From Acidimicrobiales bacterium (GTDB lineage Bacteria > Actinomycetota > Acidimicrobiia > Acidimicrobiales > JAHWLA01), in assembly GCA_035536915.1 (NCBI GenBank), contig DATLNE010000040.1, positions 1 to 64,000 on the forward strand: 64,000 bases of DNA, read 5' to 3'. Within the stretch, counting starts at the first letter, position 1, and the number at the start of each line of letters is the position of its first letter. Below are positions 7,749 to 38,743 of the stretch, in pieces. A program made the position numbers and the translations under genes. The notes beneath the pieces are model-generated. The model was not told the origin of the DNA. It made no database searches and saw nothing but the letters and a program-made list of their open reading frames with translations.

Positions 7749-9182
7749 GTGCAACGACGGCTCGACCTGGGAGAGGCGCGTCACTACATCGACGGCACGT
7801 GGTGTGGTGACGGTGAGCGCATCGAGGTCGTCGACCCGGCCACCGAGCAGGTGGTGGGCCAGGTGGTGGCGGGCACCCCGGCCGACGTGGACGCCGCAGT
7901 GGCGTCTGCCCGCCGGGCCTTCCCGGCGTGGTCAGGCCGCAGCGTGGCCGAACGAGTCGACGTCGCCGGCCGGTTGGCAAAGGCGGTGGGGGAGCGGGCC
8001 GGTGACCTCATGGAGGTCATCTCCACGCAGATGGGCTCACCGCTGTGGGTCTCGGAGCGCGTGCAGGTGGGCCTGCCGATGATGGTGCTCGACGCCTTCC
8101 CGCGGACCGCCGCCGACTTCGCCTACGAGGAAGTGCTCGGCAACTCGCTCGTCGTGCGCGAACCGGTGGGGGTGGTCGGCTGCATCACGGCGTGGAACTA
8201 CCCGTTGTACCTGGCCGTGTGCAAGGTCGTGCCTGCCCTGTTGGCCGGCTGCACGGTGGTACTGAAGCCGAGCGAGATGACGCCGTTCGACGCCTGCATC
8301 CTGGCCGAGGCCATGGAGGCGGCGGGGGTGCCGCCGGGGGTCTTCAACGTCGTCCACGGCCGTGGCCCCGAGGTCGGCGAGGCCTTGGCGGCGCATCCCG
8401 ACGTCGACATGGTGTCGTTCACCGGCTCGACGGCGGCGGGTCGTCGGGTGGCGGCCACGGCGGCAGGCACGGTCAAGCGCGTCGCCTTGGAGCTCGGCGG
8501 CAAGTCGGCCACGGTCGTGCTCGACGACGCCGACGTCGCCAAGGCGGTCGCCACGGGCACCGCCATGTGCTTCCTCAACAGCGGCCAGACGTGCACGGCG
8601 CTCAGCCGCCTGCTGGTGCCCCGGGCCCGCCTCGGCGAGGCCGAGCAAATCGCCGCCGCGGTCGCGGCCAAGCACACCGTCGGCGACCCGTTCGACGCCG
8701 GCACCCGGGTCGGCCCGGTGGCGTCGGCCCGCCAGCGAGCCACCGTGCGCGGCTACATCGACGGCGCGGTGGCCGAGGGGGCACGGCTGGTGACCGGGGG
8801 CGGCGGGCCGCCGGCCGACCTGGCGTCGGGCTACTACGTGGCGCCCACCGTGTTCTCGTCGGTCGACCGGACGATGACCGTCGCCCGCGAGGAGGTCTTC
8901 GGGCCGGTGCTGGCGATCCTGCCGTACGAGGACGACGACGACGCCGTGGCCATCGCCAACGACACGATCTACGGGTTGTCGTCCGCGGTGTGGTCAGCCG
9001 ACGAGGAGCGGGCCATGGCCGTGGCCCGCCGCCTGCGCGCCGGGCAGGTCGAGGTCAACGGCGGCCCGTACAACCCCTACGCCCCCTTCGGCGGCTACCG
9101 GCAGTCGGGCACAGGCCGTGAGCTGGGCGCCCACGGCCTGGCCGAGTTCCTCGAGGTGAAGTCGATCCAGCGTCAGCCGTAG
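7749..9182 (+). CDS. Aldehyde dehydrogenase (NAD(P)+)
   Basis: A 477-residue aldehyde dehydrogenase of full family length. It has the cofactor-binding GCITAWNYPLYLAVCKVVPA, the general-base Glu in LELGGKS (about residue 249) and the catalytic Cys in SGQTC (about residue 282), followed by the typical EEVFGPVLAI and FGGYRQSGTGRELG. It oxidises an aldehyde to a carboxylic acid; the substrate is unknown. The GTG at 7749 is supported by AGGAGG 6-8 nt upstream. The last 10 nt overlap the convergent substrate-binding-protein gene. Confidence 0.93.
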   Translation: MQRRLDLGEARHYIDGTWCGDGERIEVVDPATEQVVGQVVAGTPADVDAAVASARRAFPAWSGRSVAERVDVAGRLAKAVGERAGDLMEVISTQMGSPLWVSERVQVGLPMMVLDAFPRTAADFAYEEVLGNSLVVREPVGVVGCITAWNYPLYLAVCKVVPALLAGCTVVLKPSEMTPFDACILAEAMEAAGVPPGVFNVVHGRGPEVGEALAAHPDVDMVSFTGSTAAGRRVAATAAGTVKRVALELGGKSATVVLDDADVAKAVATGTAMCFLNSGQTCTALSRLLVPRARLGEAEQIAAAVAAKHTVGDPFDAGTRVGPVASARQRATVRGYIDGAVAEGARLVTGGGGPPADLASGYYVAPTVFSSVDRTMTVAREEVFGPVLAILPYEDDDDAVAIANDTIYGLSSAVWSADEERAMAVARRLRAGQVEVNGGPYNPYAPFGGYRQSGTGRELGAHGLAEFLEVKSIQRQP

Positions 9183-10738
9183 GCGGGCCGGAAGGGCCCG
9201 ACGTGGCGCCAGCACCGGCAGTCGCGGCGCCACGTGGCCGGGCTCAGCGAGTCACCGCCGGTGAGCTTGCCGGGCCGGTCGAAGCGTGCGTAGTTCACCA
9301 CGGAGGGGCGCATCTCGCCTGACGTGCCGATGGCCTCACCCAACGAGCGGCGGGTGGGGTTGGGGCCGGCTTTGCCAGCGGCCAGCAGGAACTGCTCCAA
9401 GTGGTCGCACAACGTCAAGGCCTCGAGGTCCCGTCCGTAGTCGGTGATCGGAGGCAGGTTGTGCGGCGCCTTGGTGATGACGTCGTTGCATCGCTTGCCT
9501 GCCGCCACCGCCTTCGGGTCGCCGTGGTGGATGGTGGTGTACGCCATCACGCCGTCGAACTGGTCGGGGTTGTAATCACGCGAGCCCGAGTCCAAGGTGA
9601 CGCCGAGCAGGTCGGACAGGAAGTACTTCGGCTTGTAGCCCTGGGGCTGCGCGGAGTTGAGGAACGAGTTGATGGCGACCGTGGTCACCGCCGGGAGCAC
9701 GTGGGTCACGCCGTCGCCCGCAAACTGGAGCTGGGCCACGGGCCCGGCGCGCTGCTGGCTCTGAAGGTCGCAGTCCATGGAGTACTCGCTCCACGACGTG
9801 ACGCCCGCCTGCCGGAGGTAGGCCTTCAGCCCGTTCGGCGTGTTGATGATCGAGTCCCGGCAGTTCATCCACAGGATGCCGAGCTTCTTGAAGCCCTTGG
9901 CCGGGTCGAAGAACCCTGTCTCCTGGGCCGAACGCACGTAGTCGAGCATCTTGCGGTTGTCGTCCTTCATGGTGCCGGTCTGGTACGGCGCCGCCTCTCG
10001 GATCTCCTCGGCGGTGCCGACCTGGCCGGTGAACAGCAACGTCTGCTTCTGCTTGGTGAGGCATGCACGCGTCGTGGCGTTGGCGAAGGCGCCCACGTCG
10101 AGCACGGCGAAGACCTTCTCCTCGTCGGCGAACTGCGTGCACTTCCGGTTCTGGTCGTCGAGGCTGAGGATGTCGACCTCGCGCTTCACAGGGACGATGC
10201 GCCTCCCGTGTACGCCGCCGCGGGCGTTGGCGTCGGCCACCAGCGCGTCGATGACCTTGTCGGTGTCGTCGCGCAGGTTGGCCACGATGCCCGCCTCGGC
10301 CACGCCGGCCAGGTTGATGATCACGAACCCGATCTTGACTGTGTCGGCGGTGACGCCACGGTCGCTGGCCCGCAGTGTCACCGGTCCACCACCGCCTCCG
10401 CCCCCTCCTCCGGTGCCGCCGGTCGCGCTGCCCGATCGACTCGTGCCGCGGGTGCCACCGGTCGCGGTGGTCCCCGCAGCACCGTCGGCGCCGCCCGGCG
10501 CGCCGCCGGCGACGCCGTCGGGCCCTGCAGGGCCGCCACCTTCGCCTGCCGTCTCCTCGAAGGTGCCGCCCGCCTCCGACCCCACGTGCACGCCGTCGTT
10601 GCTGCGGCCCGACAGCGCGGGCACCACGGCGACGACGACCAACGCCATGGCCATGGCCAACGCGGAGACGGCGAGCCGTCGTTCGATCAGCGACGCCTCG
10701 CGCCACCACAGCCGTGTCTGCAACCCAAAGGGGATCAT
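9173..10738 (-). CDS. Branched-chain-type (HAAT) ABC transporter substrate-binding protein, membrane-anchored
   Basis: A 521-residue extracytoplasmic ligand-binding protein of the LivK/peripla_BP_6 kind. It has a single hydrophobic N-terminal segment (about residues 22-46) with no lipobox cysteine, then a Gly-rich low-complexity linker (about 55-130), then the binding domain beginning ADTVKIGFVIINLAGVAEAG. It appears to be held by an uncleaved anchor instead of a lipid. It is the last gene of a leftward importer operon: LivF-type ATPase, LivH-LivM-LivG fusion, this protein (15-nt gap). The ligand is not predictable; in such clusters it may be an aromatic or short-chain acid or an amino acid. 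Confidence 0.87.
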   Translation of the reverse strand: MIPFGLQTRLWWREASLIERRLAVSALAMAMALVVVAVVPALSGRSNDGVHVGSEAGGTFEETAGEGGGPAGPDGVAGGAPGGADGAAGTTATGGTRGTSRSGSATGGTGGGGGGGGGPVTLRASDRGVTADTVKIGFVIINLAGVAEAGIVANLRDDTDKVIDALVADANARGGVHGRRIVPVKREVDILSLDDQNRKCTQFADEEKVFAVLDVGAFANATTRACLTKQKQTLLFTGQVGTAEEIREAAPYQTGTMKDDNRKMLDYVRSAQETGFFDPAKGFKKLGILWMNCRDSIINTPNGLKAYLRQAGVTSWSEYSMDCDLQSQQRAGPVAQLQFAGDGVTHVLPAVTTVAINSFLNSAQPQGYKPKYFLSDLLGVTLDSGSRDYNPDQFDGVMAYTTIHHGDPKAVAAGKRCNDVITKAPHNLPPITDYGRDLEALTLCDHLEQFLLAAGKAGPNPTRRSLGEAIGTSGEMRPSVVNYARFDRPGKLTGGDSLSPATWRRDCRCWRHVGPFRPAYG

Positions 10739-10753
10739 CGGACCTCCGTGCGA

Positions 10754-13546
10754 TCAGGTGGTTCCACTGGCAACCGCAGCCCGCCGACGGCGCGAGGCGC
10801 GAGGTGTCGTGGGCCCGGAGCGGGCAATGGCTGCCTCGGTGGTCCCGAGGTAGCCGGCTATGACGATCGGGTTGTGACGGATCTCGTGCGGCGTGCCCTC
10901 GGCGGCCAGCCGTCCCGCCTCCAGGTAGTAGAGCCGGTCGGCAATCCGCAGCATCAACGGCATGTCGTGCTCGACGATGACCACGGCGCAACCGAGCTCG
11001 TCGGCGATGCGGCGGATCAGGGGCGCAAAGGCCTCGGCATCGCGCTGGGCCACCCCGGCGGTGGGCTCGTCGAGCAGCAGCACCCGGGGTTCGGCGGCCA
11101 CCTGGGTGACGAGGTCGCAGATGCGTCGCGTGCCCGTCGAGAGGTCGCCCACGGCGGTGTCGGCCCAGGTGGCCAGGCCGAAGCCGGCGACCAGTTCGTC
11201 GGCTCGCCGCCGGGTCTGCCGTTCGGTGAAGCGCGACCACGGCGCCCCGAAAAAGCCTGCGAGCAGCCCGACGCGGCGGCGGCGGGCCAAGGCCACCTGG
11301 ATGGTCTCCCGAACGGTGAGGCCGGGGAACAGGCGAGCGTCCTGGAAGCTGCGGCCGATGCCGAGGTGCGCACGAGCGTCAGGTGGCAGGTGCGCCACCT
11401 CGCTGCCGTCGAGCAGCACGCTCCCGCTCGACGGCGTCAGCCGGCCCGACACCACGTTGAGCAGGGTGGTCTTGCCTGCACCGTTGGCCCCGATGAGCCC
11501 GACGATCTCGCCCGGGCGCACCCGCAACGAGACCCCTTGCAGGGCGCGCACCCCACCGAAGGAGAGGTGCACGTCGTCCACTTCGAGGACGGCGTCGCTC
11601 GGCTCCGGGCGAGGTGCTGCGGCCCGGTCGGCGGCCACCCGGTCGAGCAGTCGTTGCCACGACTGCCGGGTCACGGCCGCCAGGCCGCCCGGGTTCGTGA
11701 GCTGCATGACGATCAACCCGGAGCCACCGAGGAGGAGCTGCATCTGCACGGTGCTCGGGAGCACGCCGTGCATGAAGTCGTGCGTGAGCTCGGGGATGCC
11801 GTAGAGCGCGACGGCACCGAGGAAGGCCCCCGCCACCGAGCTGATGCCGCCCACGACCGCCAGCGACAGCATGACGAAGGACTGTTGGGGGTCGAACACC
11901 GTCACCGAGACGTTGCGGACGGTGGCGAGCCACAGGGCGCCGGCGACCGCGGCGAGGGCGGCGGCGAGCATGAACACCGACAACCGGACGGCGCCCGGCG
12001 ACGTTCCGAGGGCGGCCGCAGCCGGGGCGTTGTCGCGAACGGCCACCACCAGCCTGCCGGGCGACGAGCGGCGCAAGGCGGCCAGCCCGAAGGCGGCCAG
12101 CGCGACCACCACGAAGGTGGCGTAGTAGGTCGACCGCGCGGTGTCGAGGTCGCCGATGCCAGGCATGTGCAGGGCGCCTGCCGTCACCACTTCGCCGCCG
12201 GCCAGCCATGGCTGGCGAAACAGCCAGGCGGGGCCCACGACGGCCAACCCCAGGGTCGTCACCGCCAGCCCCAGCCCCGCCACGCGCATGGCGGGGATGC
12301 CGATGATCGCACCGGCGGCCGCCCCCGCCAGTGCCGTCAGGGCCAACACGGCTGGCAGCCCCACCTCGGCCTCCTGCAGCCGGGCGGCCACCAGCGCCCC
12401 GAGGCCGAGGAAGGCGAACTGGCCCAGGCTGACCTGGCCGCCCCAGCCCGCGAGCAGTGTCAACGACAAGGCGACGAGGGCGAAGCACAGCGTCAGCGTC
12501 AACACCTGTGTGGCGCTCGGCGTGCGCAGCCGGGGCAGGTACGGAGCGAGCACGCCCAGGAACAGCCCGATGCCCACAGCGAGGACCCGCACCCGAGTGA
12601 CCAGTGCCCCGGCCAGGATCGGGGGTGGTGCGATGGGCTTGTCGTGGGGATCGAGCACGCCTTCGGTGGCGGTGCCCGACTCGCTCCCGTCGCGGTAGCG
12701 CACGAGCAAGCTGACCAGGATCACCAGGAACATGACGGCCGTGGCGGTGTGGTCGCTGTGGGTCACGAACACGACGAGGCTCTCGAGCACGCCGAGGGCG
12801 ACGCCGGCGGCGAAGGCCACGGGCATGTTGGTGAACCGGGCCACTGCGGCTGCGCCCAGCACCCGCAACAGCAGCGACGGCCCCAGTGCCTGGGTGTCGA
12901 AGACCGCCTGGCCAGGAGCGGTGAGCACGGCGCTGACGGCGGCCAGCACCCCGGCCACCACCCAGGTGATCGACGACACCCGGGAGACCGACACGCCGGC
13001 CAGGGCGGCGGCGTCGCGGTTGCACGCGGCGGCTCGGATGGCTTTGCCGAGCAGCGTCCAGCGGAACAACGCGCTCAAGCCTGCCGCCACCGCGGGGACG
13101 AGCACGAGCACGACGACGTGCTGGCCTCGCAGGGTCAGCGCCCCTACCGGGATGCTCGTCTCGAAGGGCACCGGGTAGCCCTCGGCGTTCAGCCGCAGGC
13201 GGCTGGGGCCCAGCCACGTGAAGTAGGTGAAGGCCAGCAGCACCTGCGACAGCCCGATGGAGGCGATGAGCAACGTCGCCCGCGAGCGGTCGGCCAACGG
13301 CCGCACGACGAGGCGTTCGGAGACGTAGCCGATGAGGCCGCCGACGGCGAGGGCCACCACGAAGGCGGGCAACCACGGGAGCCCGAGGTCGAGCACCAAC
13401 TTGGCCAGGAGCAGGGCGGGAACAACGCCTAACTGGGCATGGGCCAGGTTGAGGAAGCGCCCTGCCTTGTAGACCAGGACGAAGCCCAGCGCGAGCACGG
13501 CGATGACGAGCCCGTTGACGACGCCGAGGACGAAGAAGCCGATCAC
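10754..13546 (-). CDS. LivH-LivM-LivG fusion: HAAT-type ABC permease-permease-ATPase
   Basis: One 930-residue polypeptide contains what is normally three proteins. Residues about 1-285 are a LivH permease (starts VIGFFVLGVVNGL; NLAHAQLG loop). About 300-620 are LivM (GWGGQVSLGQFAFLGLGAL, RDNAPAAAALG). About 648-890 are a LivG ATPase with Walker A GANGAGKTT near 681, a degenerate signature LSTGTRR near 799, Walker B VLLLDEP near 820, and EHD. The GTG at 13546 overlaps the LivF stop as GTGA, and the long open frame upstream of it is a shadow of LivF. With LivF and the binding protein this is a complete importer. Confidence 0.9.
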   Translation of the reverse strand: MIGFFVLGVVNGLVIAVLALGFVLVYKAGRFLNLAHAQLGVVPALLLAKLVLDLGLPWLPAFVVALAVGGLIGYVSERLVVRPLADRSRATLLIASIGLSQVLLAFTYFTWLGPSRLRLNAEGYPVPFETSIPVGALTLRGQHVVVLVLVPAVAAGLSALFRWTLLGKAIRAAACNRDAAALAGVSVSRVSSITWVVAGVLAAVSAVLTAPGQAVFDTQALGPSLLLRVLGAAAVARFTNMPVAFAAGVALGVLESLVVFVTHSDHTATAVMFLVILVSLLVRYRDGSESGTATEGVLDPHDKPIAPPPILAGALVTRVRVLAVGIGLFLGVLAPYLPRLRTPSATQVLTLTLCFALVALSLTLLAGWGGQVSLGQFAFLGLGALVAARLQEAEVGLPAVLALTALAGAAAGAIIGIPAMRVAGLGLAVTTLGLAVVGPAWLFRQPWLAGGEVVTAGALHMPGIGDLDTARSTYYATFVVVALAAFGLAALRRSSPGRLVVAVRDNAPAAAALGTSPGAVRLSVFMLAAALAAVAGALWLATVRNVSVTVFDPQQSFVMLSLAVVGGISSVAGAFLGAVALYGIPELTHDFMHGVLPSTVQMQLLLGGSGLIVMQLTNPGGLAAVTRQSWQRLLDRVAADRAAAPRPEPSDAVLEVDDVHLSFGGVRALQGVSLRVRPGEIVGLIGANGAGKTTLLNVVSGRLTPSSGSVLLDGSEVAHLPPDARAHLGIGRSFQDARLFPGLTVRETIQVALARRRRVGLLAGFFGAPWSRFTERQTRRRADELVAGFGLATWADTAVGDLSTGTRRICDLVTQVAAEPRVLLLDEPTAGVAQRDAEAFAPLIRRIADELGCAVVIVEHDMPLMLRIADRLYYLEAGRLAAEGTPHEIRHNPIVIAGYLGTTEAAIARSGPTTPRASRRRRAAVASGTT

Positions 13547-14331
13547 GGGGCGGTCTCCCCGCCGAAGAACACGGCGCGGGCGATGTCGGACCGTTCGAGC
13601 AGGTCGACGGTGCGGCCCTCGAACCGAACGGCGCCCTTCTCCATGAACACGGCTCGCTCGCACAACCCGGCCGCCACGTTGAGGCTCTGCTCCACGAGCA
13701 CCACGGTGGTGCCGGTGGCGTTCACTGCGCGGACGCGGTCCAGCAGCGCTTCCACCACCACCGGGGCGAGCCCCAGCGACAGCTCGTCGATGAGCAGGGC
13801 GCGGGGGCTGAGCAGCATGGCCTTGGCCAAAGCGAGCTGCTGCTGTTCGCCGCCGGACAGCGAGCCCGCTCGTTGGCCGAGCCGAGCCTTCAGTGCGGGA
13901 AAGAGGTCGAGCACGGCCTCGCTTCGTTCCTGCACCAGCTGCCGGTTCCGCCGCAAGGTCCATGCCCCCACGTGGAGGTTCTCGGCCACCGTGAGGTCGG
14001 CGAAGACAGCCTTGCCGCCTTGCAACAGGACGACGCCGCGACCGACCAAATCGACGGGGTCGGCCCTGGTCACGTCGGCGCCGTCGAGCTCGACCCGGCC
14101 TGCACTGGGCCGCGAGAGCCCGGAGACGACACGCAGCAAGGTCGACTTGCCGGCGCCGTTGGTCCCGAGCAGGGCCACCATCTCACCGGGAGCGACATCG
14201 AGAGAGACGTCGTGGAGCACTTGGACGGAGCCATAGCTGAAGTCGATGCCGGTGACCCGAAGCCGTGCACCGAGGGGCACAGCGGGATCCGGCGTCTGCG
14301 GCTTCAGATGTGCTGCGGGAGCACTCTGCAC
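13543..14331 (-). CDS. LivF-type ABC transporter ATPase
   Basis: A 262-residue ATP-binding subunit of a HAAT importer. Walker A is GTNGAGKST, the Q-loop region is VVLLQGGKAVF, the signature is SLSGGEQQQLALAKA, Walker B is ALLIDELSLGLAP, and the switch is VEQSLN. It pairs with the LivG domain of the fused protein encoded next, to which it is translationally coupled. Start is GTG at 14331; the first 20 residues are a non-conserved leader. A GTTA-containing stretch (14341-14356) lies just upstream. Confidence 0.92.
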   Translation of the reverse strand: MQSAPAAHLKPQTPDPAVPLGARLRVTGIDFSYGSVQVLHDVSLDVAPGEMVALLGTNGAGKSTLLRVVSGLSRPSAGRVELDGADVTRADPVDLVGRGVVLLQGGKAVFADLTVAENLHVGAWTLRRNRQLVQERSEAVLDLFPALKARLGQRAGSLSGGEQQQLALAKAMLLSPRALLIDELSLGLAPVVVEALLDRVRAVNATGTTVVLVEQSLNVAAGLCERAVFMEKGAVRFEGRTVDLLERSDIARAVFFGGETAP

Positions 14332-28019: not shown

Positions 28020-29540
28020 ATGCGTGGTACCCGTGCCCTGGCCGCACTGGCAGCCTTCTCGCTGTTGGCTGCCGCCTGCGGTAGTTCCACCGCTTATCGC
28101 CAAGCGAACTCGAAGCAGCAGCAGGGGGGCGAGGAAGGGGAGTTCGGCGTCGGCCCCGACGGCAAGCCCCTCGAGGGTGGCGTTCCTGGGCAGGAGCCCG
28201 GTGTACAGGGCACGCCCGGCACGACCGGCACCACCGGCCTCGCTCCCGGGGCCAACGGCGGCGACCCGACACGTCCCGGCCCAGGGACGACAACAGGCCC
28301 GGGCCCGACCGGCCCCGGCAACACGGCGCCCATCCGACTCGGCTACGTCATCGCCGACAACCGCGAGGTCGAGCAGATCACCGGCAGGAAAGCAGGCGAC
28401 GCCAGCGCCGCCGAGCGCGAGATGCAGGCGCTCATCAGTTGGGCCAACAAGACCGGTGGGATCGGCGGCCGCAAGATCGACGCCAAGGGCTACACGATCT
28501 CGCAGACTTCGAACGACTCCCAGCGCACGGCGGCCTGCGTGGCCATGACCGAGGACGACAAGCGCGAGGTCGTCATCGACTCGGTGGTGTTCGGGACGGA
28601 AGCCAGCTACGCCTGCTTCGCCAAGCACAAGACGACGTTTATGGGTGCGGTGACCACCAGTTCCAGCGGCTACCTGCAGTCGACGGCGCCGTACATCATG
28701 ACGACCAACGCAGGCCTGGACCGGGAGATGCAGGTGCTCCCGCAGGCCCTGAAGGAAGCCGGGTACTTCGAGGGGGAAAAGGTCGGCGTGATCCTCGACG
28801 ACATCCCCAACCTGCGGGCCGCCTACCAGCAGCACCTGGTGCCGGCCATGCAGCGAGCAGGCGTGCCGATCGCCGACGTCCGCTTCGTCGGCTACGAGGG
28901 CACCGCATCGGAGCACGCCCAGATGGGCAACGCCGTGCTCGACTTCAAGGACAAGAAGATCCAGCGCGTGATCATGTTCACCTACGCGCTGAACTACCTC
29001 TCGTTCACAAGCCAGGCCCGATCGCAGACATACAACCCGCGCTACGCCTACACCGACTACATGGCGTTGAACGCGGTGGCGTTGGCCTTCGGCGCCGCCG
29101 CCCAGAACGCCAACGCCATGGGCTTGAGCACCGTCGACGGCATGGTGGTCGACGACAACTCGCGAGGCTTCGGTGACACCACGCCGGTGCCCCGGGAGAA
29201 GCTGTCGCCGGGGAGGCAACGCTGCCTCGACATCCTCTCGCAGGAAACCGGCCGCGACTACTACCGGCCCCAGGAGTCGGGCCGCACCAACGTGGTCTTC
29301 ATCCACTGCGACAGCTTCTTGTTGTGGCTCGACACAGCCCGGGCGACCGGCCCGTCGTGGGCGCCGGGTGCGAGTGCCCCTGCGCTGCGCCGACTCGGCA
29401 CCGGCTTCCTCACGGCGACGCAGAAGGCCACCAACTTCGGCACCGGCCGCTTCGACGGGGCGAGCTCCTACCGCCTGGGCAAGCGCGACGACAGGTGCAA
29501 CTGCTACGTGAAGGTCATCGACTGGCGCCCGTTGCCCTGA
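28020..29540 (+). CDS. HAAT-type ABC transporter substrate-binding lipoprotein
   Basis: A 506-residue lipoprotein: the signal peptide MRGTRALAALAAFSLLAAAC ends in the lipobox Cys at residue 20. A Gly/Pro/Thr-rich linker follows (about 30-100), then the LivK-like domain beginning RLGYVIADNREVEQITG. The C terminus has several Cys (CFAKHK, HCDSF, DDRCNCYVKV) that may form disulfides. Its operon and regulation place it with sugar-acid catabolism rather than amino-acid uptake, so the ligand is probably a sugar, sugar acid or plant-derived acid. ATG 28020 is preferred over the adjacent TTG 28017. Confidence 0.88.
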   Translation: MRGTRALAALAAFSLLAAACGSSTAYRQANSKQQQGGEEGEFGVGPDGKPLEGGVPGQEPGVQGTPGTTGTTGLAPGANGGDPTRPGPGTTTGPGPTGPGNTAPIRLGYVIADNREVEQITGRKAGDASAAEREMQALISWANKTGGIGGRKIDAKGYTISQTSNDSQRTAACVAMTEDDKREVVIDSVVFGTEASYACFAKHKTTFMGAVTTSSSGYLQSTAPYIMTTNAGLDREMQVLPQALKEAGYFEGEKVGVILDDIPNLRAAYQQHLVPAMQRAGVPIADVRFVGYEGTASEHAQMGNAVLDFKDKKIQRVIMFTYALNYLSFTSQARSQTYNPRYAYTDYMALNAVALAFGAAAQNANAMGLSTVDGMVVDDNSRGFGDTTPVPREKLSPGRQRCLDILSQETGRDYYRPQESGRTNVVFIHCDSFLLWLDTARATGPSWAPGASAPALRRLGTGFLTATQKATNFGTGRFDGASSYRLGKRDDRCNCYVKVIDWRPLP

Positions 29541-29601: not shown

Positions 29602-30774
29602 ATGACGAGCGGAGCAGTAACCGAGGACAACGTGGTGACGGGTGGCGCGGCGCCGCCGTCGCCGGTCCTGCACGTGGAGCGGGTCGAGGTGGTGCCCTTG
29701 CGCGTGCCGCTCGAGCGCCGCTTCCAGGGATCGCACTACTCGATGAACTCACGATGCACCCTGATCGTGCGCGTCTACACCACCGAAGGTGTCGTCGGGA
29801 TCTCCTACAACGGTGACGAAGCAGGCACCCAGCTGGAGATCGCCCGGATCATCACCGACGAGCTCGGCCCGTTGGTGAAAGGCATGGCCGTGCCGGGCCA
29901 TGCCGCCCTGTGGAACGCCATGCTCCCGCCGACGTTCGACATCCTCCGCGACCGTCGCCTGGTGATCATGGCCATGGCTGCCCTCGATTCGGCGTTGTGG
30001 GACGCCGCCGGCAAGGCGATGGGCATGCCCTTGTGGCGCGTGTGGGGCGGCGCACAGCCCGCCCTGCCACTCATCGCCATCGGTGGCTACTACTGGGACG
30101 ACCCCGCGGAGACGGTCTCGGAGATGGAGGACTACCTGGCCCTCGGCATCGCCGGGTGCAAGTTCAAGGTCGGCGGGGCCACCCCCGAGGTCGATGCCGA
30201 ACGGCTGCGGGTGGCGAGGAAGGCAGCGGGGCCCGACTTCGTGCTGATGGCCGACGCCAACCAGGGCTACACGCTGTCGGAAGCGCTGCGTTTCGCCGAA
30301 CTGGTCGCCGATTGCAACGTGCGCTGGTTCGAGGAGCCGGTGAACTGGATGAACGACCGCCTCGACATGGCGGCACTGCGCCATCGCTGCGCCATCCCCA
30401 TCGCCGCCGGGCAGAGCGAGTTCACCCGCGCAGGGGCTCGTGACCTGATCGTGAGCGGTGCCGTCGACGTCTGCAACTTCGATGCGTCGTGGAGCGGCGG
30501 GCCGACCGAGTGGCTGCGGGTGGCAGCGGTGGCCCACGCGTTCGGCGTGGAGATGGCGCACCACGAAGAGCCCCAGATCGCCGCCCACCTGCTCGCCGCC
30601 GTGCCCAACGGGACGTACGTCGAGTGCTTCCACCCCGAGCGAGACCCGATGTTCTGGCAGTTGCTCGCCAATCGTGGCGGCCCCCAGGCCGGCATGTACG
30701 TGCTCGGCGACGCGCCAGGCTTCGGGCTCGAGCTCGACGAGCAGTTCGTGGCGCGATGGCGCGAGGACCGTTGA
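29602..30774 (+). CDS. Enolase-superfamily sugar-acid dehydratase (second paralogue)
   Basis: A 390-residue mandelate-racemase-group protein with the full signature: KFKVGG (second-strand Lys), LMADANQGY (metal Asp), WFEEPVN (metal Glu), AAGQSEF (third ligand Glu), then NFDASWSGG and VEMAHHEEPQIAAH giving the Asp-His pair. It should remove water from an acid sugar to give a 2-keto-3-deoxy acid. Unlike the paralogue at 24707-25825 its Lys motif is intact, so the two likely use different stereoisomers. It lies inside the transport operon; the lipoprotein gene overlaps its end. Confidence 0.9.
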   Translation: MTSGAVTEDNVVTGGAAPPSPVLHVERVEVVPLRVPLERRFQGSHYSMNSRCTLIVRVYTTEGVVGISYNGDEAGTQLEIARIITDELGPLVKGMAVPGHAALWNAMLPPTFDILRDRRLVIMAMAALDSALWDAAGKAMGMPLWRVWGGAQPALPLIAIGGYYWDDPAETVSEMEDYLALGIAGCKFKVGGATPEVDAERLRVARKAAGPDFVLMADANQGYTLSEALRFAELVADCNVRWFEEPVNWMNDRLDMAALRHRCAIPIAAGQSEFTRAGARDLIVSGAVDVCNFDASWSGGPTEWLRVAAVAHAFGVEMAHHEEPQIAAHLLAAVPNGTYVECFHPERDPMFWQLLANRGGPQAGMYVLGDAPGFGLELDEQFVARWREDR

Positions 30775-31247
30775 GGCGCCTCGCCGCCGGCCTGGCTGTC
30801 GCAGCGCTGCTCACCGGCGGCTGCGCCGTCAGCGGCATCAACCTCGTGCAGGACCAGCGGGTGAGGATCCTGGCCCCCGGCCCCGATGACGAGGTCACCG
30901 TGCCTCTGACCATCCGCTGGGAAGCCGAGCGCGTGGAGGGCCTGACCTTCGCCGTGTTCGTCGACCGCGCACCGATCAAGCCCGGCGCGTCGCTGCGGTC
31001 CTTGGCCGAGGACGACGACGTCTGCCTGTCGCGACCCGACTGCCCCGACGCCGGATACCTCGCCTCCAAAGGGGTCTACGTGACGACCGAGCCCTCAGTC
31101 ACCCTCCCAGGCCTGCCGGATCACCGCGCCACCGAGGAGCACCGCCGCGACCCGCACTTCGCCACCATCGTGCTCATCGACGGGGACCGCCGCGTGGGCG
31201 AGAGCGCCTGGTACCGGGATTTCTCGATCATCCGGAAGTCGACGTGA
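30756..31247 (+). CDS. Small lipoprotein of unknown function in transporter operon
   Basis: A 163-residue lipoprotein: MARGPLRRLAAGLAVAALLT followed by GGC with the lipobox Cys at about residue 23. The mature part is beta-rich (RVRILAPGPDDEVTVPLTIRWEAE), like an immunoglobulin-type fold. ATG 30756 gives a proper Arg-containing n-region; TTG 30771, overlapping the previous stop, is an alternative start. It is coupled by GTGA overlap to the MFS-LivF fusion gene, so it may be an accessory surface subunit of that transporter. No homologous function is recognised. Confidence 0.72.
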   Translation: MARGPLRRLAAGLAVAALLTGGCAVSGINLVQDQRVRILAPGPDDEVTVPLTIRWEAERVEGLTFAVFVDRAPIKPGASLRSLAEDDDVCLSRPDCPDAGYLASKGVYVTTEPSVTLPGLPDHRATEEHRRDPHFATIVLIDGDRRVGESAWYRDFSIIRKST

Positions 31248-33430
31248 CCGACACCCTGCACGACGATGCCGCCGTCGTCGAGGTCGAAGAGACCCAGGCG
31301 GCGCTGCGCAAGGCGGGCCGCTCCGTCCTCGGCATCACGGGCGACGAGAACGCCCCGCCCCTGCGCCGCATCCTCAGCGAGGAGGGGCTGAGCTGGTACC
31401 CGCTCTTCGCCCTGTGCGCTCTGGCCCTGGTCGACCAGTTCCAATCCCGCGCCTTCATCGTCCTGGCCCCGGAGATCGCCCAAGCCTTCGGCTTGGCGCC
31501 CGCCGCCATCGCCGCCTTCGGCTCCCTGCAGGCACTGACCCTGTCGGTTGCCGCCCTTCCCGCCGCCGCCTTCGTGCAGCGGAAGGCTCGCCGCGGCGCG
31601 GTGGCGATCGTGACCGCGGTGGGATGGGGGTTGGCGACGCTGTGCACCGGCTTCGTCGGCAACCCCTTCGGCCTGCTGATGGTGACCTTGCTCGACGGCG
31701 CGTCGAGCGGGTCGGTGCGGACCGTGCACGGCCCACTGCTGTTCGACCATTACCCGCCTGCGGCCAGGGGCCGCATGCTGTCGACCTACCTGGCGGCCAC
31801 CTACGCCGCCGGGGTGATCGCGCCGGCTTCGGTGGCCATCTTGACGGCGTTGAACCTGACCTGGCGCGGCGTGTTCGTCGTGCTCGGCGTGGTGTGCCTG
31901 GCCACCGCTGCGGCCGCCTCGCGCCTTCGTGACCCGGGCTTCGGCCGCTTCGACACCGCTCGCATCCGCGGCTTGGTGAGGGACGAACCGGTGGAGGAGG
32001 AGCCGGGCCTCGACCTCGGCTTCTTCGAGGTGGTGCGGCGCATCTGGCTCATTCCCACGGTGAAGCGGGTGATGGTCGCCTCGACCCTGCTGGGGATCAT
32101 GCTCACCCCGCTCATCACGTTCATGGTCTTCTACCTGGCCGAGCGGTGGCACCAGGGGCCGACGGCGCGGGCCGTGTTCTCCGCCCTCACCGCTGCCCTC
32201 GCCGTGCCTGCGCTCATCGTCATGGGCGGGCGCATCGAGCGCAACTTCCGCCACGATCCCTCTCGCGTCGTGGTGCAGAGCGGCACCTTCCTGGCCGTCG
32301 GCGTCGTCGGCCTCGGCGTGGGGGTCCTGTCGCCGTGGTTCGTGGGCATGGGCGTGCTCTTCGCCATCGGCAACACCGCATTCGCCCTGACCGTCCCCGC
32401 GCTGGCCATGTCGGTGCAGGCGGTGCTGCCGCCCGCGATGCGCGCCCACGCCGCTGCCCTGCAGGGGATCATGCTCTTCGGCGCCGGGTCGTTCGTCGGG
32501 GTGATCTTCCTCTCGGGCATCGACCGGCGCCTGGGGCCGACGGGCGCGGTGATCGCCATGGCCATCCCCGGGCTGGCGTCGGCCGCCGTGCTCGCCAGTT
32601 GCCGCAAGACGATCAACGCCGACATCGACCGCGTGGTCGACGACATCGTCGAGGAAGAGGAGATCCGCAAGCTGGTGTCGTCGGGCGTGCGCCTGCCCAT
32701 GCTGGCATGCCGCAACATCGACTTCAGCTACGACCAGCTGCAGGTGCTCTTCGACGTGTCGTTCTCGGTCGACGAAGGCGAGATGGTCGCCCTGCTCGGC
32801 ACGAACGGGGCGGGCAAGTCGACCCTGCTGCGGGCCATCACCGGCCTGGGCTTGCCGTCGTCGGGATCGGTGCGCTTCCGGGGCGCCGACATCACCTACG
32901 TCGACCCCCAGCGGCGGGTCGGGTTGGGCATCACCCAGATCGCCGGCGGCAAGGCCACGTTCCCCCGGCTGACGGTGGTGGAGAACCTGCGGGCCTTCGG
33001 CTACGGGCGAGGCCGCGACACCCGCGCCGTCGACCGCGGCATCGAGGCCACCTTCGACGCCTTCCCTCGGCTGGCCGAACGGCGCGACCAACTGGCGGGC
33101 ACCCTGTCGGGCGGCGAAGCCCAGATGCTCGCCCTGGGCCGGGCGCTGATCCTCGAGCCGCCCCTGCTCTGCATCGACGAGCTGTCGTTGGGCCTGGCGC
33201 CCAAGGTCGTGGGCGAGTTGCTGGAGATGGTGCGGCGCATCAATGCCCAGGGCACGGCGGTGGTCCTCGTCGAGCAGAGCGTGAACATCGCCCTCTCGCT
33301 GGTCGACCACGTCTATTTCATGGAACGCGGGGAGATCCGCTTCGACGGCAAGGCGCGTGACCTGCTCGGCCGGGACGACTTGCTCCGGTCGGTCTTCCTC
33401 GAAGGTGCAACGAAGGGACTCGCCCGGTGA
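31244..33430 (+). CDS. MFS transporter domain fused to LivF-type ABC ATPase
   Basis: A 728-residue fusion. Residues about 45-465 contain roughly twelve hydrophobic segments in a major-facilitator pattern (DQFQSRAF in segment 1, VQRKARRG loop after segment 2, ARGRMLSTYLAATYAAGVIAP in segment 5). Residues about 485-728 are a complete LivF ATPase: Walker A GTNGAGKST near 518, LSGGEAQMLALGRA near 620, Walker B LLCIDELSLGLAP near 642, and VEQSVN. Frame and codon use are continuous across the junction. The stop overlaps the LivH-LivM-LivG fusion gene (GTGA), so the product must supply the LivF half of that importer while also carrying a secondary transporter. Confidence 0.88.
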   Translation: MTDTLHDDAAVVEVEETQAALRKAGRSVLGITGDENAPPLRRILSEEGLSWYPLFALCALALVDQFQSRAFIVLAPEIAQAFGLAPAAIAAFGSLQALTLSVAALPAAAFVQRKARRGAVAIVTAVGWGLATLCTGFVGNPFGLLMVTLLDGASSGSVRTVHGPLLFDHYPPAARGRMLSTYLAATYAAGVIAPASVAILTALNLTWRGVFVVLGVVCLATAAAASRLRDPGFGRFDTARIRGLVRDEPVEEEPGLDLGFFEVVRRIWLIPTVKRVMVASTLLGIMLTPLITFMVFYLAERWHQGPTARAVFSALTAALAVPALIVMGGRIERNFRHDPSRVVVQSGTFLAVGVVGLGVGVLSPWFVGMGVLFAIGNTAFALTVPALAMSVQAVLPPAMRAHAAALQGIMLFGAGSFVGVIFLSGIDRRLGPTGAVIAMAIPGLASAAVLASCRKTINADIDRVVDDIVEEEEIRKLVSSGVRLPMLACRNIDFSYDQLQVLFDVSFSVDEGEMVALLGTNGAGKSTLLRAITGLGLPSSGSVRFRGADITYVDPQRRVGLGITQIAGGKATFPRLTVVENLRAFGYGRGRDTRAVDRGIEATFDAFPRLAERRDQLAGTLSGGEAQMLALGRALILEPPLLCIDELSLGLAPKVVGELLEMVRRINAQGTAVVLVEQSVNIALSLVDHVYFMERGEIRFDGKARDLLGRDDLLRSVFLEGATKGLAR

Positions 33431-36405
33431 TCGCTGTTTCTGTACCCCTCCCCCTGGTCCTCCTGGGGGTGGTCATCGGGCTGACGTACGGGCTGCTGGC
33501 GGTCGGCCTGGTGCTGATCTACCGCTCGAACCGCATCATCAACTTCGCCCACGGCGAGATCGGCGGCTTCGCCGCGGCCCTGCTGGTGGTGTTCGTGGTG
33601 CGCAACAACTTGCCGTACTGGCTCGTCTTCCCGTTTGCCTTGGCGGCGGGTGCCGGGGCGGCGATGACGGTGGAGGCGGTGGCCGTCCGCCGCATCCGCC
33701 GGGCGCCCGCCCCGATGAGCATCATCGCCACCTTGGGGGCAGGCACGTTCCTTGCCCTGTTCGGCCTCGCCATCAACACCGGCCTGCGCCGCGGCTCGGC
33801 CTTTCCGCAGCCCCCGGGCCTCCCCTCGTTCGCCGTCGGCCAGCTGGTGCTGACCCCGGCCTACGTCGCCATGCTCGTGATCACGCCGCTGCTCGTCGTC
33901 GGCTTGGCGCTGTTCCTGCGCTTTACCCGCTACGGCGTGGCCATGCGGGCAGCCGCCGACAACAGCGACACGGCGTCGATGAGCGGGATCTCGCCCACCC
34001 GCATGTCGTCGATCACCTGGGGGATCGCCGGCGTGGTCTCGGCCTACACCGCCATCCTGCAGATGCCGTCGGCGGGCGTGATGGTGGCGGGCATGTCGGT
34101 GGGGCCCGCGCTGCTGTTGCGGGCGTTGCTGGCCGCGGTGATCGCCCGCCTCGACAGCCTGCCGCGGGCGTTGGCAGCGGGCGTCGGCATCGGCGTGGTC
34201 GAGCAGGTGCTGTTGTGGAACAACCCCTCCAGCGGCCAAGTGGAAGCGCTGCTGTTCTTCTGCACCATGGTCGCCCTGTTCGCCCTCCGACGCCGCAGCG
34301 GGCGGGAGGAAGCCCAGGGGTCGTGGCTGGCGGCCACGCCGTGGCCGCCCCTGCCCGAACGGCTGCGCCAGGTGTGGGCCATCCGCAACTTGGGCCGCCT
34401 CGCCTTCGTGGCCACCTTCCTGCTCTTCGTGCTGGTCTCACTGACGACGAACCGTGCCGCCTACACCTTCACCCTCGTCGCCGGGTACTCGCTCGTGGGC
34501 CTCTCGGTCTTCGTGGTCACGGGGCTCACCGGGCAACTGTCGCTCGGCCAGTTCGCTTTGGCGGGCGTGGGCGCCATCGCCAGCTACCAGGTCGCCGTAC
34601 GCGGCGGCGACCCGGTGGTCGGCGTGCTCCTTTCGGGGCTGACGGCGGCGGTCGCCGCCGTGCTCATCGGGCTGCCCGCCCTGCGACTGCGAGGGTTGCT
34701 GCTGACGGTGAGCACCATCTCGTTCGCCTTGATGTGCCAGGGGTGGTTGTTCAGCCAGTCATGGGCCTTCTCCGGCGGCGTCGATCCCGGTCGCCCCATC
34801 TACTTCGATCGCGCCTTTTTGTCGTCGAAGTCGTACTACTTGTTCGCCCTGCCGTTCCTAGCCGTGGGTTTCCTCCTCGTGTGGAACGTGGCTCGCGGGG
34901 GCGTCGGTCGAGCCTTCGTGGCCGTGCGCGACAACGAAGACGGCGCTCGCGCATTCGGCGTTCGGGCCATGCGCACGAAGCTCCTCAGCTTCGCCATCGC
35001 CGGCTTCCTCGCCGGCCTCGGCGGCGCCGTCATCCTCCATGCCGAGGCCCGGGTCACCGCCGGCACCTTCGGCGCCGCGGCCAGCGTGACCGTGGTGGCC
35101 ATGAGCGTGATCGGCGGCATCTCGTTGCTCTCCGGTTCGCTCATCGGCGCCCTGTACCTCATCGCCTTGCCCGCCTTCGTGCCGCTCGACTCGGCGGCCT
35201 CGGCGGCGAGCACGTTGGGGTGGCTGTTTCTCATCCTCTACTTCCCCGGCGGCGTGGCCCAGTTGGTGCGCCCCCTGCGAGAGCGGCTGATCGTGCTGTT
35301 GGCGCGACGGGCGGGCGTCGACCCCACAGACGCGGCGGCCGAGGCGGCCACGTCGGAGGAGGCGTCGGCCATCACCGGCGCCGTGCGGCTGGCCGACGCG
35401 CCGCAGGTGGCGTCCGTCGAGCAGGGTGGCAACGCCGCAGGTGTGCAGGTGCGCGACATCCGCCGCCACTTCGGTGGCGTGCGCGCTGTCGACGGCGTGA
35501 CCATCGACGTGCAGCCGCGGGAGATCCTCGGGATCATTGGGCCCAACGGCGCAGGCAAGACGACCTTGTTCGAGATCATCGGCGGCTTCACCGCCCCCGA
35601 TGCCGGCTCGGTGATCTTCGACGGCACCGACGTGACGAAGTTGGCGCCGGAGGGCCGGGCCGCCCTCGGCATCGTGCGCTCGTTCCAGGACGCCCGCCTG
35701 TTCCCGACGATGACGGTGCTGGAGTGCGTGCGACTGTCGTTGGAACGGCAGTCGAAGACGCCGGTGGTGGCGTCCCTGCTCGGGTTGCCCACGGCATCAC
35801 GGCGAGAGCGTGAGCGTGATGTCCAGGCCCGGGCGCTGGTCGAGACCATGGGGCTCGACGCCTACCGTTCGAAGACGGTGGCCGAGCTGTCGACGGGCAC
35901 CCGTCGCATCACCGAGTTGGCGTGCATCGTGGCCATGCGGCCTCGGCTCCTCCTCCTGGACGAGCCGTCGTCGGGCATCGCCCAGCGGGAGTCCGAAGCG
36001 CTGGCCGATGTCATCCGCATGATCCGCGATCGCCTCGACACCACCGTCATCGTCATCGAGCACGACATCCCGCTGGTGACCTCGATCAGCGACCGCATGA
36101 TCGCCATGGACTTGGGCCAGGTCATCGCCGGCGGGAGCCCCACCGAGGTGTGCAGCCACCCGGCGGTGGTCGAGAGCTACCTAGGCGGCAACATGGCGGC
36201 TATCGAACGGTCCGGTCGCGTCCGGCGTCGGCGCTCCCGGGCGGCCGTGCCGCAGGTGTCGAACGGCAACGGCAACGGCCACGGGCACGCGGGCGCAGCC
36301 GACGGCGCCCGCTGCGAGGCTGTCACCCGCTCCGGCGAGCGCTGCTCGCGGGCCGCCTCCGTCGACGGCGTCTGCGGCCAGCACGCCAAGGTCAGCTCGG
36401 CCTGA
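33427..36405 (+). CDS. LivH-LivM-LivG fusion with C-terminal zinc-finger-like tail
   Basis: A 992-residue HAAT importer core. Residues about 1-290 are LivH (LTYGLLAVGLVLIYRSNRII, NFAHGEIGG). About 315-620 are LivM (GLTGQLSLGQFALAGVGAI, VRDNEDGARAFGVR). About 671-915 are LivG with Walker A GPNGAGKTT near 707, LSTGTRR near 820, Walker B LLLLDEPSSGIAQ near 840. After an Arg-rich and Asn-Gly-repeat linker, residues about 961-986 read RCEAVTRSGERC followed by CGQH, a Cys/His pattern like short DUF5763-type zinc ribbons. GTG start overlaps the preceding stop. Parallel to the fusion at 10754-13546 but for a different binding protein. Confidence 0.9.
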   Translation: MIAVSVPLPLVLLGVVIGLTYGLLAVGLVLIYRSNRIINFAHGEIGGFAAALLVVFVVRNNLPYWLVFPFALAAGAGAAMTVEAVAVRRIRRAPAPMSIIATLGAGTFLALFGLAINTGLRRGSAFPQPPGLPSFAVGQLVLTPAYVAMLVITPLLVVGLALFLRFTRYGVAMRAAADNSDTASMSGISPTRMSSITWGIAGVVSAYTAILQMPSAGVMVAGMSVGPALLLRALLAAVIARLDSLPRALAAGVGIGVVEQVLLWNNPSSGQVEALLFFCTMVALFALRRRSGREEAQGSWLAATPWPPLPERLRQVWAIRNLGRLAFVATFLLFVLVSLTTNRAAYTFTLVAGYSLVGLSVFVVTGLTGQLSLGQFALAGVGAIASYQVAVRGGDPVVGVLLSGLTAAVAAVLIGLPALRLRGLLLTVSTISFALMCQGWLFSQSWAFSGGVDPGRPIYFDRAFLSSKSYYLFALPFLAVGFLLVWNVARGGVGRAFVAVRDNEDGARAFGVRAMRTKLLSFAIAGFLAGLGGAVILHAEARVTAGTFGAAASVTVVAMSVIGGISLLSGSLIGALYLIALPAFVPLDSAASAASTLGWLFLILYFPGGVAQLVRPLRERLIVLLARRAGVDPTDAAAEAATSEEASAITGAVRLADAPQVASVEQGGNAAGVQVRDIRRHFGGVRAVDGVTIDVQPREILGIIGPNGAGKTTLFEIIGGFTAPDAGSVIFDGTDVTKLAPEGRAALGIVRSFQDARLFPTMTVLECVRLSLERQSKTPVVASLLGLPTASRRERERDVQARALVETMGLDAYRSKTVAELSTGTRRITELACIVAMRPRLLLLDEPSSGIAQRESEALADVIRMIRDRLDTTVIVIEHDIPLVTSISDRMIAMDLGQVIAGGSPTEVCSHPAVVESYLGGNMAAIERSGRVRRRRSRAAVPQVSNGNGNGHGHAGAADGARCEAVTRSGERCSRAASVDGVCGQHAKVSSA

Positions 36406-36603: not shown

Positions 36604-37377
36604 ATGAAGGCCATGCCTCTGGTCACCCTCGACGTCGTCGACGGCGTCGCCACCGTCACGCTGCGCGACGCCGAGCGGCGCAACGCACTGACGTTGCCGA
36701 TGGTCGCCGAACTGGTCGACATCTTCGACGCCATCGAAGCCGACGACGCGGTGGGCGCCGTGGTGGTGACGGGGGAGCCGCCTGCGTTCTGCGCGGGCGC
36801 CGACCTGTCGCACCTGTCGGGCTCGTCGGCGGGCAGCACCGAGGACTCCCTGCGGGCGATCTACGAGGGCTTCCTGCGCGTGGGCCGCTCGCCGCTGCCG
36901 ACGCTGGCGGCGGTGAACGGCGCCGCAGTGGGCGCAGGCATGAACCTGGCGCTGGTGTGCGACGTTCGTCTCGCCGCCGCGGGCGCCCGCTTCGACACGC
37001 GGTTCCTCAAGTTGGGCCTCCACCCCGGCGGCGGCCACACGTGGATGCTCCGCCGGGTCGCAGGCCCGCAGGCGACGGCCGCGCTGGTGCTCTTCGGCGA
37101 GGTGGTCGACGGCGCCGAGGCCGAGCGCATCGGGCTCGTGCACCGCTGCGTGGCCGACGACGAGCTCCTCTTCACGGCGCATGCCATGGCCGCTCGGGCC
37201 GCCGCCGCGCCCCGCGAACTGGTTCGCCGGGTCAAGGCGACGGTCGCCGACATGGCCGCCGTCACCGACCACCAAGACGCCGTCGACCGGGAGCTGGTCG
37301 ACCAGGTGTGGTCGATGGCCCAGCCCGCCTTCCGTGAGCGGCTGGCCGGGCTGCGGGCGCAGATCAGCTCCCGCTGA
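36604..37377 (+). CDS. Crotonase-fold protein (enoyl-CoA hydratase/isomerase family) lacking catalytic glutamates
   Basis: A 257-residue crotonase. The oxyanion-hole segments AFCAGADLS (about residue 60) and GAAVGAGMNLALVCD (about 107) are intact. However, the positions of the two hydratase glutamates carry other residues: the segment FDTRFLKLGLHPGGG has no Glu where rat enoyl-CoA hydratase has Glu144, and ATAALVLFGE has Ala where Glu164 is expected. It may therefore be an isomerase, hydrolase or non-catalytic acyl-CoA binder, as proposed for mycobacterial EchA6. ATG 36604 is used; a second ATG is 3 codons later. Confidence 0.83.
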   Translation: MKAMPLVTLDVVDGVATVTLRDAERRNALTLPMVAELVDIFDAIEADDAVGAVVVTGEPPAFCAGADLSHLSGSSAGSTEDSLRAIYEGFLRVGRSPLPTLAAVNGAAVGAGMNLALVCDVRLAAAGARFDTRFLKLGLHPGGGHTWMLRRVAGPQATAALVLFGEVVDGAEAERIGLVHRCVADDELLFTAHAMAARAAAAPRELVRRVKATVADMAAVTDHQDAVDRELVDQVWSMAQPAFRERLAGLRAQISSR

Positions 37378-37402: not shown

Positions 37403-38743
37403 ATGAACGACCTGCTCGTCCGCCTCGTCGGGCAGCGAGACCTCCCACGAGCGCTGGCAGCCGTGACCGCTGCAGTGCTGCTCGTGGGCGTCTTCACCCT
37501 CGGGGTGCGCGTGGGCAGCTCGGGCGACGACGATGCCTCGCCGGCACCCGCCCCGAACGAGACGACGACCACGGCCGCCGCAGGCCCGCCCGACACCACG
37601 GCCGCGACACCGGCACCGCCCCCACCCGACGTTGCCGCCCTGCCCGCCGTGCCCGCGGTGCCGAGTCCGAACGGCGTCGCCGCGGGCGCCCGCTCGGTGG
37701 CCTACGAAGGCGGCATCTCCGGCATCGCCTCCGTCAAGCTGCGGGGCAACCAGGCCATCGAGTTCACCGGCCAGTTCGTCGACGGCGCGGGCACGCGGCG
37801 GCGGGGCACCGTGCGGGGCAGTGGCCCCGAGGTCCACGTGGCGGGCAAGGCGCTCGACCTCACCGTCGTTGGCGAACTGCGCATCCGGGGCACCACAGTG
37901 CACCTCACCCGCGGGACCATCCAGGTGGCCTCCTCGGGAAACGTCACCGCCGCCGCGGGCTCGTTCACCTTTCAACCGGCTTTCGACCCCAACGCCCCGC
38001 GCACCACCAGCAGCCCGCAGCCGACCGACGTGCCCGGCCCGGTGACGCTGGTGAGCGAGCCCGGGGTCACCGCGGGCATCTCGGGCGGCGAGGCGGAGTG
38101 GGTCGACGCGCCCGCCACCCTGCGCGCCACAGGCAAGGACCGCTCCACCTTGTCGTGGGCGGGACCGGGTGTGGTGCGAGCCGCGGGCCGCGACCACAAA
38201 GGCGAGTTCCTCGGCGTCAAGGCGTCCGCTCTGGAAGTCACCATCGAACGGCTGCCCGGCGGCGTGCGGCTGCGGGGCACGGCCACGTTCCTCCAGGTCT
38301 TCGCGGACGGACTCCCCACGCTGCCCGGCCAGGGCCGAATGCGGGTCAAGCGCACGCCCGGGCAGGTGGCCCGCGGCACCAACGGCTCGTTTACGTGGGC
38401 ACCGGAGAACGACGGCAAGACCGACTTCGTGATGACCCGCATCAAGCCCGGCAATGCCGAGGCGGCGTGGGTGTCGCTGGGCCTCGACAAGCTTCCGGCC
38501 ATGTGCGGGGGCGAGGAGTGCCCGGTGAAAGGCGGCGACACCACCGGCTTCCGCAGCGGCCGAGGCATCAACGCGGTGATCCGACCCGGCACCGGAGACG
38601 AACGCGACATCCGCTTCGCCGTGCCTGCCGACGCCGCCTTGGGACGCCACCAGATCGTTGTCGTCGTGGAGGGCAACTTCGAGCCCATCCGGGTCGTCGT
38701 CGAGTTCGAGGTGGTGGCCACCTCGCCCACCACCACTCGTTAG
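37403..38743 (+). CDS. Membrane-anchored secreted protein of unknown function
   Basis: A 446-residue protein with one N-terminal transmembrane segment (about residues 17-36, AVTAAVLLVGVFTLGVRVG) followed by a Thr/Pro/Ala-rich linker (about 40-90) and a beta-rich extracellular domain. A single Cys pair is near residues 367-373 (CGGEEC). No enzyme motif is recognised. TACCCT at 37391-37396 with a 6-nt spacer to the ATG suggests a leaderless transcript. Unrelated to its neighbours as far as can be seen. Confidence 0.75.
   Translation: MNDLLVRLVGQRDLPRALAAVTAAVLLVGVFTLGVRVGSSGDDDASPAPAPNETTTTAAAGPPDTTAATPAPPPPDVAALPAVPAVPSPNGVAAGARSVAYEGGISGIASVKLRGNQAIEFTGQFVDGAGTRRRGTVRGSGPEVHVAGKALDLTVVGELRIRGTTVHLTRGTIQVASSGNVTAAAGSFTFQPAFDPNAPRTTSSPQPTDVPGPVTLVSEPGVTAGISGGEAEWVDAPATLRATGKDRSTLSWAGPGVVRAAGRDHKGEFLGVKASALEVTIERLPGGVRLRGTATFLQVFADGLPTLPGQGRMRVKRTPGQVARGTNGSFTWAPENDGKTDFVMTRIKPGNAEAAWVSLGLDKLPAMCGGEECPVKGGDTTGFRSGRGINAVIRPGTGDERDIRFAVPADAALGRHQIVVVVEGNFEPIRVVVEFEVVATSPTTTR

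Follow-up and report, generated by a model that had tools for sequence, protein, structure and literature searches.

The fusion gene and its operon

The window that we analysed is a stretch of 64,000 nucleotides from contig DATLNE010000040.1 of an Acidimicrobiales bacterium. On its forward strand, at 31244–33430, lies one open frame with a GTG start that encodes a protein of 728 amino acids, and a sequence-only reading had proposed that a twelve-segment MFS transporter runs in frame here into a complete LivF ATPase. Both halves of that proposal hold. Pfam placed MFS_1 at residues 58–419 (E 4e-28) and ABC_tran at residues 503–646 (E 2e-26), and the model of the whole protein (pLDDT 88.2, pTM 0.85) showed 12 helices in the MFS domain (residues 52–455, 31397–32608), which matched the 12-helix MFS fold. 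The LivF domain (residues 485–728, 32696–33427), assigned by Pfam, NCBIfam and fold, contains a Walker A motif, GTNGAGKST (residues 519–527, 32798–32824), an ABC signature, LSGGEAQ (residues 621–627, 33104–33124), and a Walker B motif, LLCIDE, with the catalytic Glu (residues 641–646, 33164–33181). Its top fold match was 1ji0 (Z 32.7), and its top NCBIfam models were UrtE and LivF, each scoring under the curated cut-off. Between TM12 and LivF, the structure model and the alignment of the joint place a linker helix of 23 residues (457–479, 32612–32680), modelled with confidence.

The fusion holds the only LivF of its operon and adjoins a single chain of 992 amino acids comprising LivH, LivM and LivG (33427–36405; Pfam and NCBIfam). 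The two genes share a GTGA overlap at 33427–33430, through which the sequence-only reading had taken them to be coupled. A second GTGA overlap (31244–31247) joins the fusion gene to the gene for LP158, a small lipoprotein of 158 amino acids (30771–31247) that accompanies the fusion in its clade. Upstream of these, and in the same operon, are an enzyme of the enolase superfamily (MR/MLE; 29602–30774; Pfam and NCBIfam) and a Peripla_BP_6 lipoprotein (28020–29540; Pfam), which is likely the importer's substrate-binding protein. Downstream of LivHMG, a neighbour scan found an enoyl-CoA hydratase/isomerase (36604–37377), followed by a protein of 446 amino acids (37403–38743) whose N-terminal part includes a hydrophobic stretch and which matched no Pfam family. 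All these genes lie on the forward strand.

The operon shares with HAAT/Liv importers (LivFGHMJK), the branched-chain amino acid ABC importers that we take to be TC 3.A.1.4, LivF and LivG ATPases with Walker A, Walker B and signature motifs (a variant LSTG in LivG), LivH and LivM as two BPD_transp_2 permeases (two PF02653 stretches), and a gene for a Peripla_BP_6 protein whose binding role is predicted. It differs from them in the N-terminal MFS domain of LivF, in the joining of LivH, LivM and LivG into one chain, and in the extra lipoprotein; relative to E. coli-type LivF and LivG, the ATPases of the window also score under the NCBIfam cut-offs. At the H-loop position the fusion LivF carries Gln (VEQS), a residue shared by the other LivF proteins whose pattern could be read, and this residue together with the LSTG-type signature of LivG predicts two unequal ATP sites, one canonical and the other unusual. 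Of the 47 MFS-bearing systems, 45 have LSTGTRR or LSTGSRR as the LivG signature, which also occurs in relatives without the MFS domain. The earlier estimate of about 30 membrane segments for the complex is plausible in view of the 12 modelled MFS helices, but a crude hydropathy count gave only 9 segments for the MFS domain and 13 for LivHM.

Neighbouring genes were mixed in content, being sugar-acid-like in the window and in locus L064 and related to acyl-CoA in L065, L066, L067, L046 and L047. Since these neighbours are mixed and the loci of the scan were hand-picked, we claim no substrate. At four loci (L064:12015–12932, L066:3478–4326, L069:6195–7202 and L067:11594–12769) the Liv genes have as neighbours recurrent, apparently secreted proteins that carry a WW motif early in the chain and a hydrophobic stretch at the C-terminal end; a Pfam scan of the four gave no match. 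A similar stretch is fused ahead of LivH in the N-terminal part of L048:4860–8387.

Occurrence of the fusion

The MFS-LivF fusion is a genuine and recurring design in related importers and no artefact. The source genome alone has eight fused copies, two of which continue into LivG (MFS-LivF-LivG), and the fetched loci contained 49 fused MFS domains, 34 in MFS-LivF and 15 in MFS-LivF-LivG proteins. MFS and LivF occupied one frame beside LivH, LivM and LivG in 46 of the 47 complete MFS-bearing systems fetched; these loci were selected because they matched the query and not at random, so the counts are no measure of frequency. In the remaining system (L092) the joint is interrupted solely by 10 N, and the frameshift that we had considered there was rejected for this reason; no frameshift or stop was found at the joint in any of the fetched loci. 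The spacing between D460 and G512 was 52–54 residues in all 26 aligned full-length proteins, which came from 18 genomes or records and included one locus with 47% G+C. The anatomy of the fusion, including a joint of fixed length, is secure.

We also considered an internal start at M486 that would release a free LivF. A Shine-Dalgarno match of at least 4 bases was present at the joint in 0 of 15 cases, where about 1.4 would be expected by chance, so that this result amounts to a mere absence of any sign of separately translated LivF. The sequence-only reading had named homologues with the two halves as separate genes in the same place as evidence against a true fusion. None of the 19 MFS-only homologues fetched adjoins separate LivF, LivG, LivH and LivM genes in this way, the nearest case being L135, where the gene for a one-chain LivH-M-F-G has a stand-alone MFS gene on the opposite strand at a distance of about 3 kb. 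The stand-alone MFS of L135 is Spns-like.

Profile searches at E 1e-40 found the MFS domain, stand-alone proteins included, in at least 63 of 198 genomes of the class (best 8 candidates per genome) and at least 19 of 396 genomes of the phylum (best 4 candidates per genome); the class and phylum searches scored the best 4 to 9 candidates of each genome, and their counts are lower bounds. At least 5000 plasmid records had some match, and among the matches listed one (Embleya) covered at least 80% of the query. A search for related loci among genome contigs returned four unrelated ABC ATPases. The dN/dS of the MFS part was 0.22–0.45 (NG86; 7 of the 8 closest pairs, dS being not computable in the eighth), which, given the high dS, indicates purifying selection only roughly. 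A limited search of the open-licence PMC literature found no description of an MFS-LivF fusion, and the domain pair may already stand in sequence databases under automatic names.

Gene layouts and relatives without the MFS domain

As a check, the question had been posed if a LivHMG fusion invariably accompanies the MFS and LivF pair; it does not. Three layouts occur, namely MFS-LivF with LivHMG, MFS-LivF with LivHM and a separate LivG (L051, L052 and L063), and LivHM with MFS-LivF-LivG (15 rows among the complete systems). Open frames of 1700–1900 amino acids at MFS-LivF-LivG genes had suggested single chains of five domains, and were rejected because they overlap LivHM in another frame.

Close relatives that have no MFS domain consist of LivHM with LivF-LivG, or of LivH, LivM, LivF and LivG in one polypeptide (L135:5360–9097 and L136:3823–8613). 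One such importer lies within the window itself (9.2–14.3 kb, reverse strand) and provides a natural comparison, with a free LivF of 245 amino acids (13543–14280), a single LivHMG chain (10754–13546) and a substrate-binding protein (9173–10738). In the LivFGHM tree of 76 rows, the MFS-bearing system of the window and this neighbour both belong to a single starred set, which comprises 32 rows. The presence of such importers in the same larger clade indicates that the MFS domain is unnecessary for LivF or LivHM to work.

A single origin of the fusion was not borne out, as the LivFGHM tree requires 3 changes in MFS presence with 58 rows and 6 with 76 rows, the larger set being the 58 rows plus 18 systems without MFS from relatives. 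Gains and losses of the MFS domain were indistinguishable among these changes. In the tree of the MFS domain itself, stand-alone proteins were interspersed among the fused groups, with 4 changes.

Kinship and proton-switch residues of the MFS domain

Profile and fold comparisons place the MFS domain nearest to the Spinster (Spns) lipid transporters. In a profile search of solved structures HnSpns (6e8j) came first (E 1.5e-33), followed by Spns1 (3.2e-24) and, in third place, DgoT (E 1.7e-21), while a single-sequence phmmer search of the PDB returned nothing at 0.001. Comparison of the modelled fold gave Spns1 with lysophospholipid (Z 38.8, rmsd 3.0, 411 aligned), then Spns2 (Z 38.6) and VAChT (35.8). 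The domain shares with HnSpns, Spns1 and Spns2 the equivalents of Arg91 and Asp142, and differs from them in being fused to an ABC ATPase and in an identity of 14–17% in the fold alignments. The match to DgoT-like sugar-acid:proton symporters is weaker, and the MFS domain of the window lacks the Arg in TM4.

The HnSpns study describes Asp41, Arg42, Arg122 and Glu129 as proton-switch residues, along with a relay of Asp87, Arg91 and Asp142 (PMC9440201). A HMMER alignment mapped these residues to positions 67 (Asp41), 68 (Arg42), 148 (Arg122), 155 (Glu129), 112 (Asp87), 117 (Arg91) and 168 (Asp142) of the window's protein. The equivalents of Asp41, Arg42, Asp87, Arg122 and Glu129 were each present in 0 of the 17 members of the window's clade, and these losses, which include the motif A Asp87, separate the clade from Spns. 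In their place we found Q/H/L at 67, S/G/T at 68, Q/A/G or a gap at 112, L/M/G/T at 148 and S/T at 155. The Arg91 and Asp142 equivalents, as well as D64, were retained in all 17. L147, omitted from the count for its poor alignment, has none of the mapped residues. The sister of the clade, L115, still has equivalents of Asp41 and Arg122.

Outside this clade the switches are better preserved. In the two other fused groups and the stand-alone group, respectively, the Asp87 equivalent was present in 18/18, 15/15 and 18/20 proteins, that of Arg122 in 15/18, 15/15 and 20/20, and that of Asp41 in 9/18 (with Glu in 6 more), 15/15 and 19/20; the 20 rows counted as stand-alone include L092, which is really fused. 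The Glu129 equivalent occurred in 1 of 18 and was not among the residues listed for the other two groups. Since it is gone from nearly all other groups too, the change in the window's clade did not start from a full set of proton switches.

The MFS core in this clade nevertheless appears constrained. Pairwise identity was 0.50 in the cavity helices and 0.49 in the gating helices, against 0.42 in the supporting helices. TM1 (0.56), TM4 (0.55), TM7 (0.55) and TM11 (0.59) were well conserved and TM9 (0.28) and TM10 (0.34) poorly so, and the cavity helices hold the clade-specific polar residues Q67, D151, S157 and T292. Within 14 systems the identity of the MFS domain was 0.49, not far from the values for the permeases LivH (0.55) and LivM (0.53), and that of LivF was 0.75. 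These alignments suggest that the MFS module of this clade is probably not proton-driven. Loss of the residues alone is no proof of uncoupling, because Spns proteins can differ in motif A and yet retain proton coupling, according to a preprint on a mycobacterial Spns (PMC13192786). The MFS identity of the N-terminal half stands, and its earlier description as a secondary carrier is doubtful given the five missing equivalents.

The lipoprotein LP158

LP158 has an invariant lipobox Cys at position 18, and Cys 85 and Cys 91 were present in 15 of 15 sequences. No Pfam family matched at 1e-3, and single members gave weak matches up to E 0.018. Its model suggests an FnIII/Ig-like arrangement; a GM2 activator fold, although the top Foldseek match, was rejected on a TM score of 0.26 and a best Z of 7.9. 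The source genome has five matches, beside its five members of the clade (one of them 6.5 kb away), 58 relatives yielded 10 more, and the phylum sample added 5 strong and 2 weak partial matches as lower bounds. Across the genomes searched, every one of the 20 strong matches falls at an MFS-bearing Liv locus; one of these loci is L145, in which the contig ends inside the MFS domain. L115 has no LP158 within its 13.9 kb. At L146, LP158 stands beside an MFS-LivF-LivG protein that keeps the Asp41, Asp87 and Arg122 equivalents, and hence the lipoprotein and the loss of residues are not strictly tied.

Discussion

The LivF subunit of a HAAT-type importer carries, in these bacteria, a permanently attached Spinster-like MFS domain, which implies that every assembled importer would hold one MFS domain beside LivH and LivM. 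The sequence-only reading had offered an ATP-gated pore, co-import and export, or a scaffold as the meaning of this domain, and all three are possible. From the evidence above we infer an order in which a gate comes first, followed by a scaffold, an ordinary carrier and an ATP-powered MFS.

Loss of most of the mapped proton-switch residues, combined with selection on the MFS core, makes an uncoupled or LivF-biased membrane gate the likeliest role in the window's clade, and we put it forward tentatively. Such a gate would pass a compound related to the importer's substrate, perhaps a co-substrate, an intermediate or a product, and LP158 may aid it.

A non-transporting MFS domain, acting as a scaffold, sensor or assembly factor that positions LivF and draws in LP158 or the binding protein, is somewhat doubtful. 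It would accord with the lost switches, the fixed joint, the lipoprotein partner and the relatives that manage without the domain, but conservation is among the highest in the cavity helices TM1, TM4 and TM7 (about 0.55 each), and a pure scaffold need not retain Q67, D151, S157 and T292.

That the domain is an ordinary secondary carrier, fused to secure equal amounts and co-location and coupled through other residues or another ion, we consider unlikely in this clade, which has lost five of the seven mapped residues, even though D64 and the Asp142 equivalent persist throughout; the loss of Glu129 from nearly all groups also speaks against it. It is most credible for the groups in which the TM1 Asp, motif A Asp and TM4 Arg are intact, the other fused groups keeping the equivalents of Asp87 in 33 of 33 and of Arg122 in 30 of 33 proteins.

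An MFS powered directly by LivF, with the fixed helix relaying movement of the nucleotide-binding domain to TM12, would suit the near-constant length and modelled helicity of the joint and a loss of proton switches after fusion, but it is very unlikely, as LivF has to serve LivHM of the same operon as well and several fused groups retain the Asp41 and Arg122 equivalents. The broader notion that alternating access of the MFS domain came to be driven or gated by the ATP cycle of LivF, proton coupling being abandoned after fusion, is improbable too; if it were true, a single pair of ATPases would serve two different translocation routes within the same complex.

By convention, ABC transporters (primary) and MFS transporters (secondary) belong to different energy classes. 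Cases are known in which an MFS carrier is fused to, or works with, another component of lipid or steroid uptake, as in LplT-Aas and CamABCD/CamM; to our knowledge these are not MFS-ABC fusions. Here the two classes form one polypeptide, in many paralogues and with a joint of fixed length. What is new is the loss of residues in the window's clade, the companionship of LP158 and the existence of related importers without the MFS domain. With the gate as the favoured reading, these natural variants, in which the switches are lost, more of them are kept or the MFS domain is absent, make gating of an MFS fold by an ABC ATPase and its reuse as a non-transporting part alternatives that can be tested.
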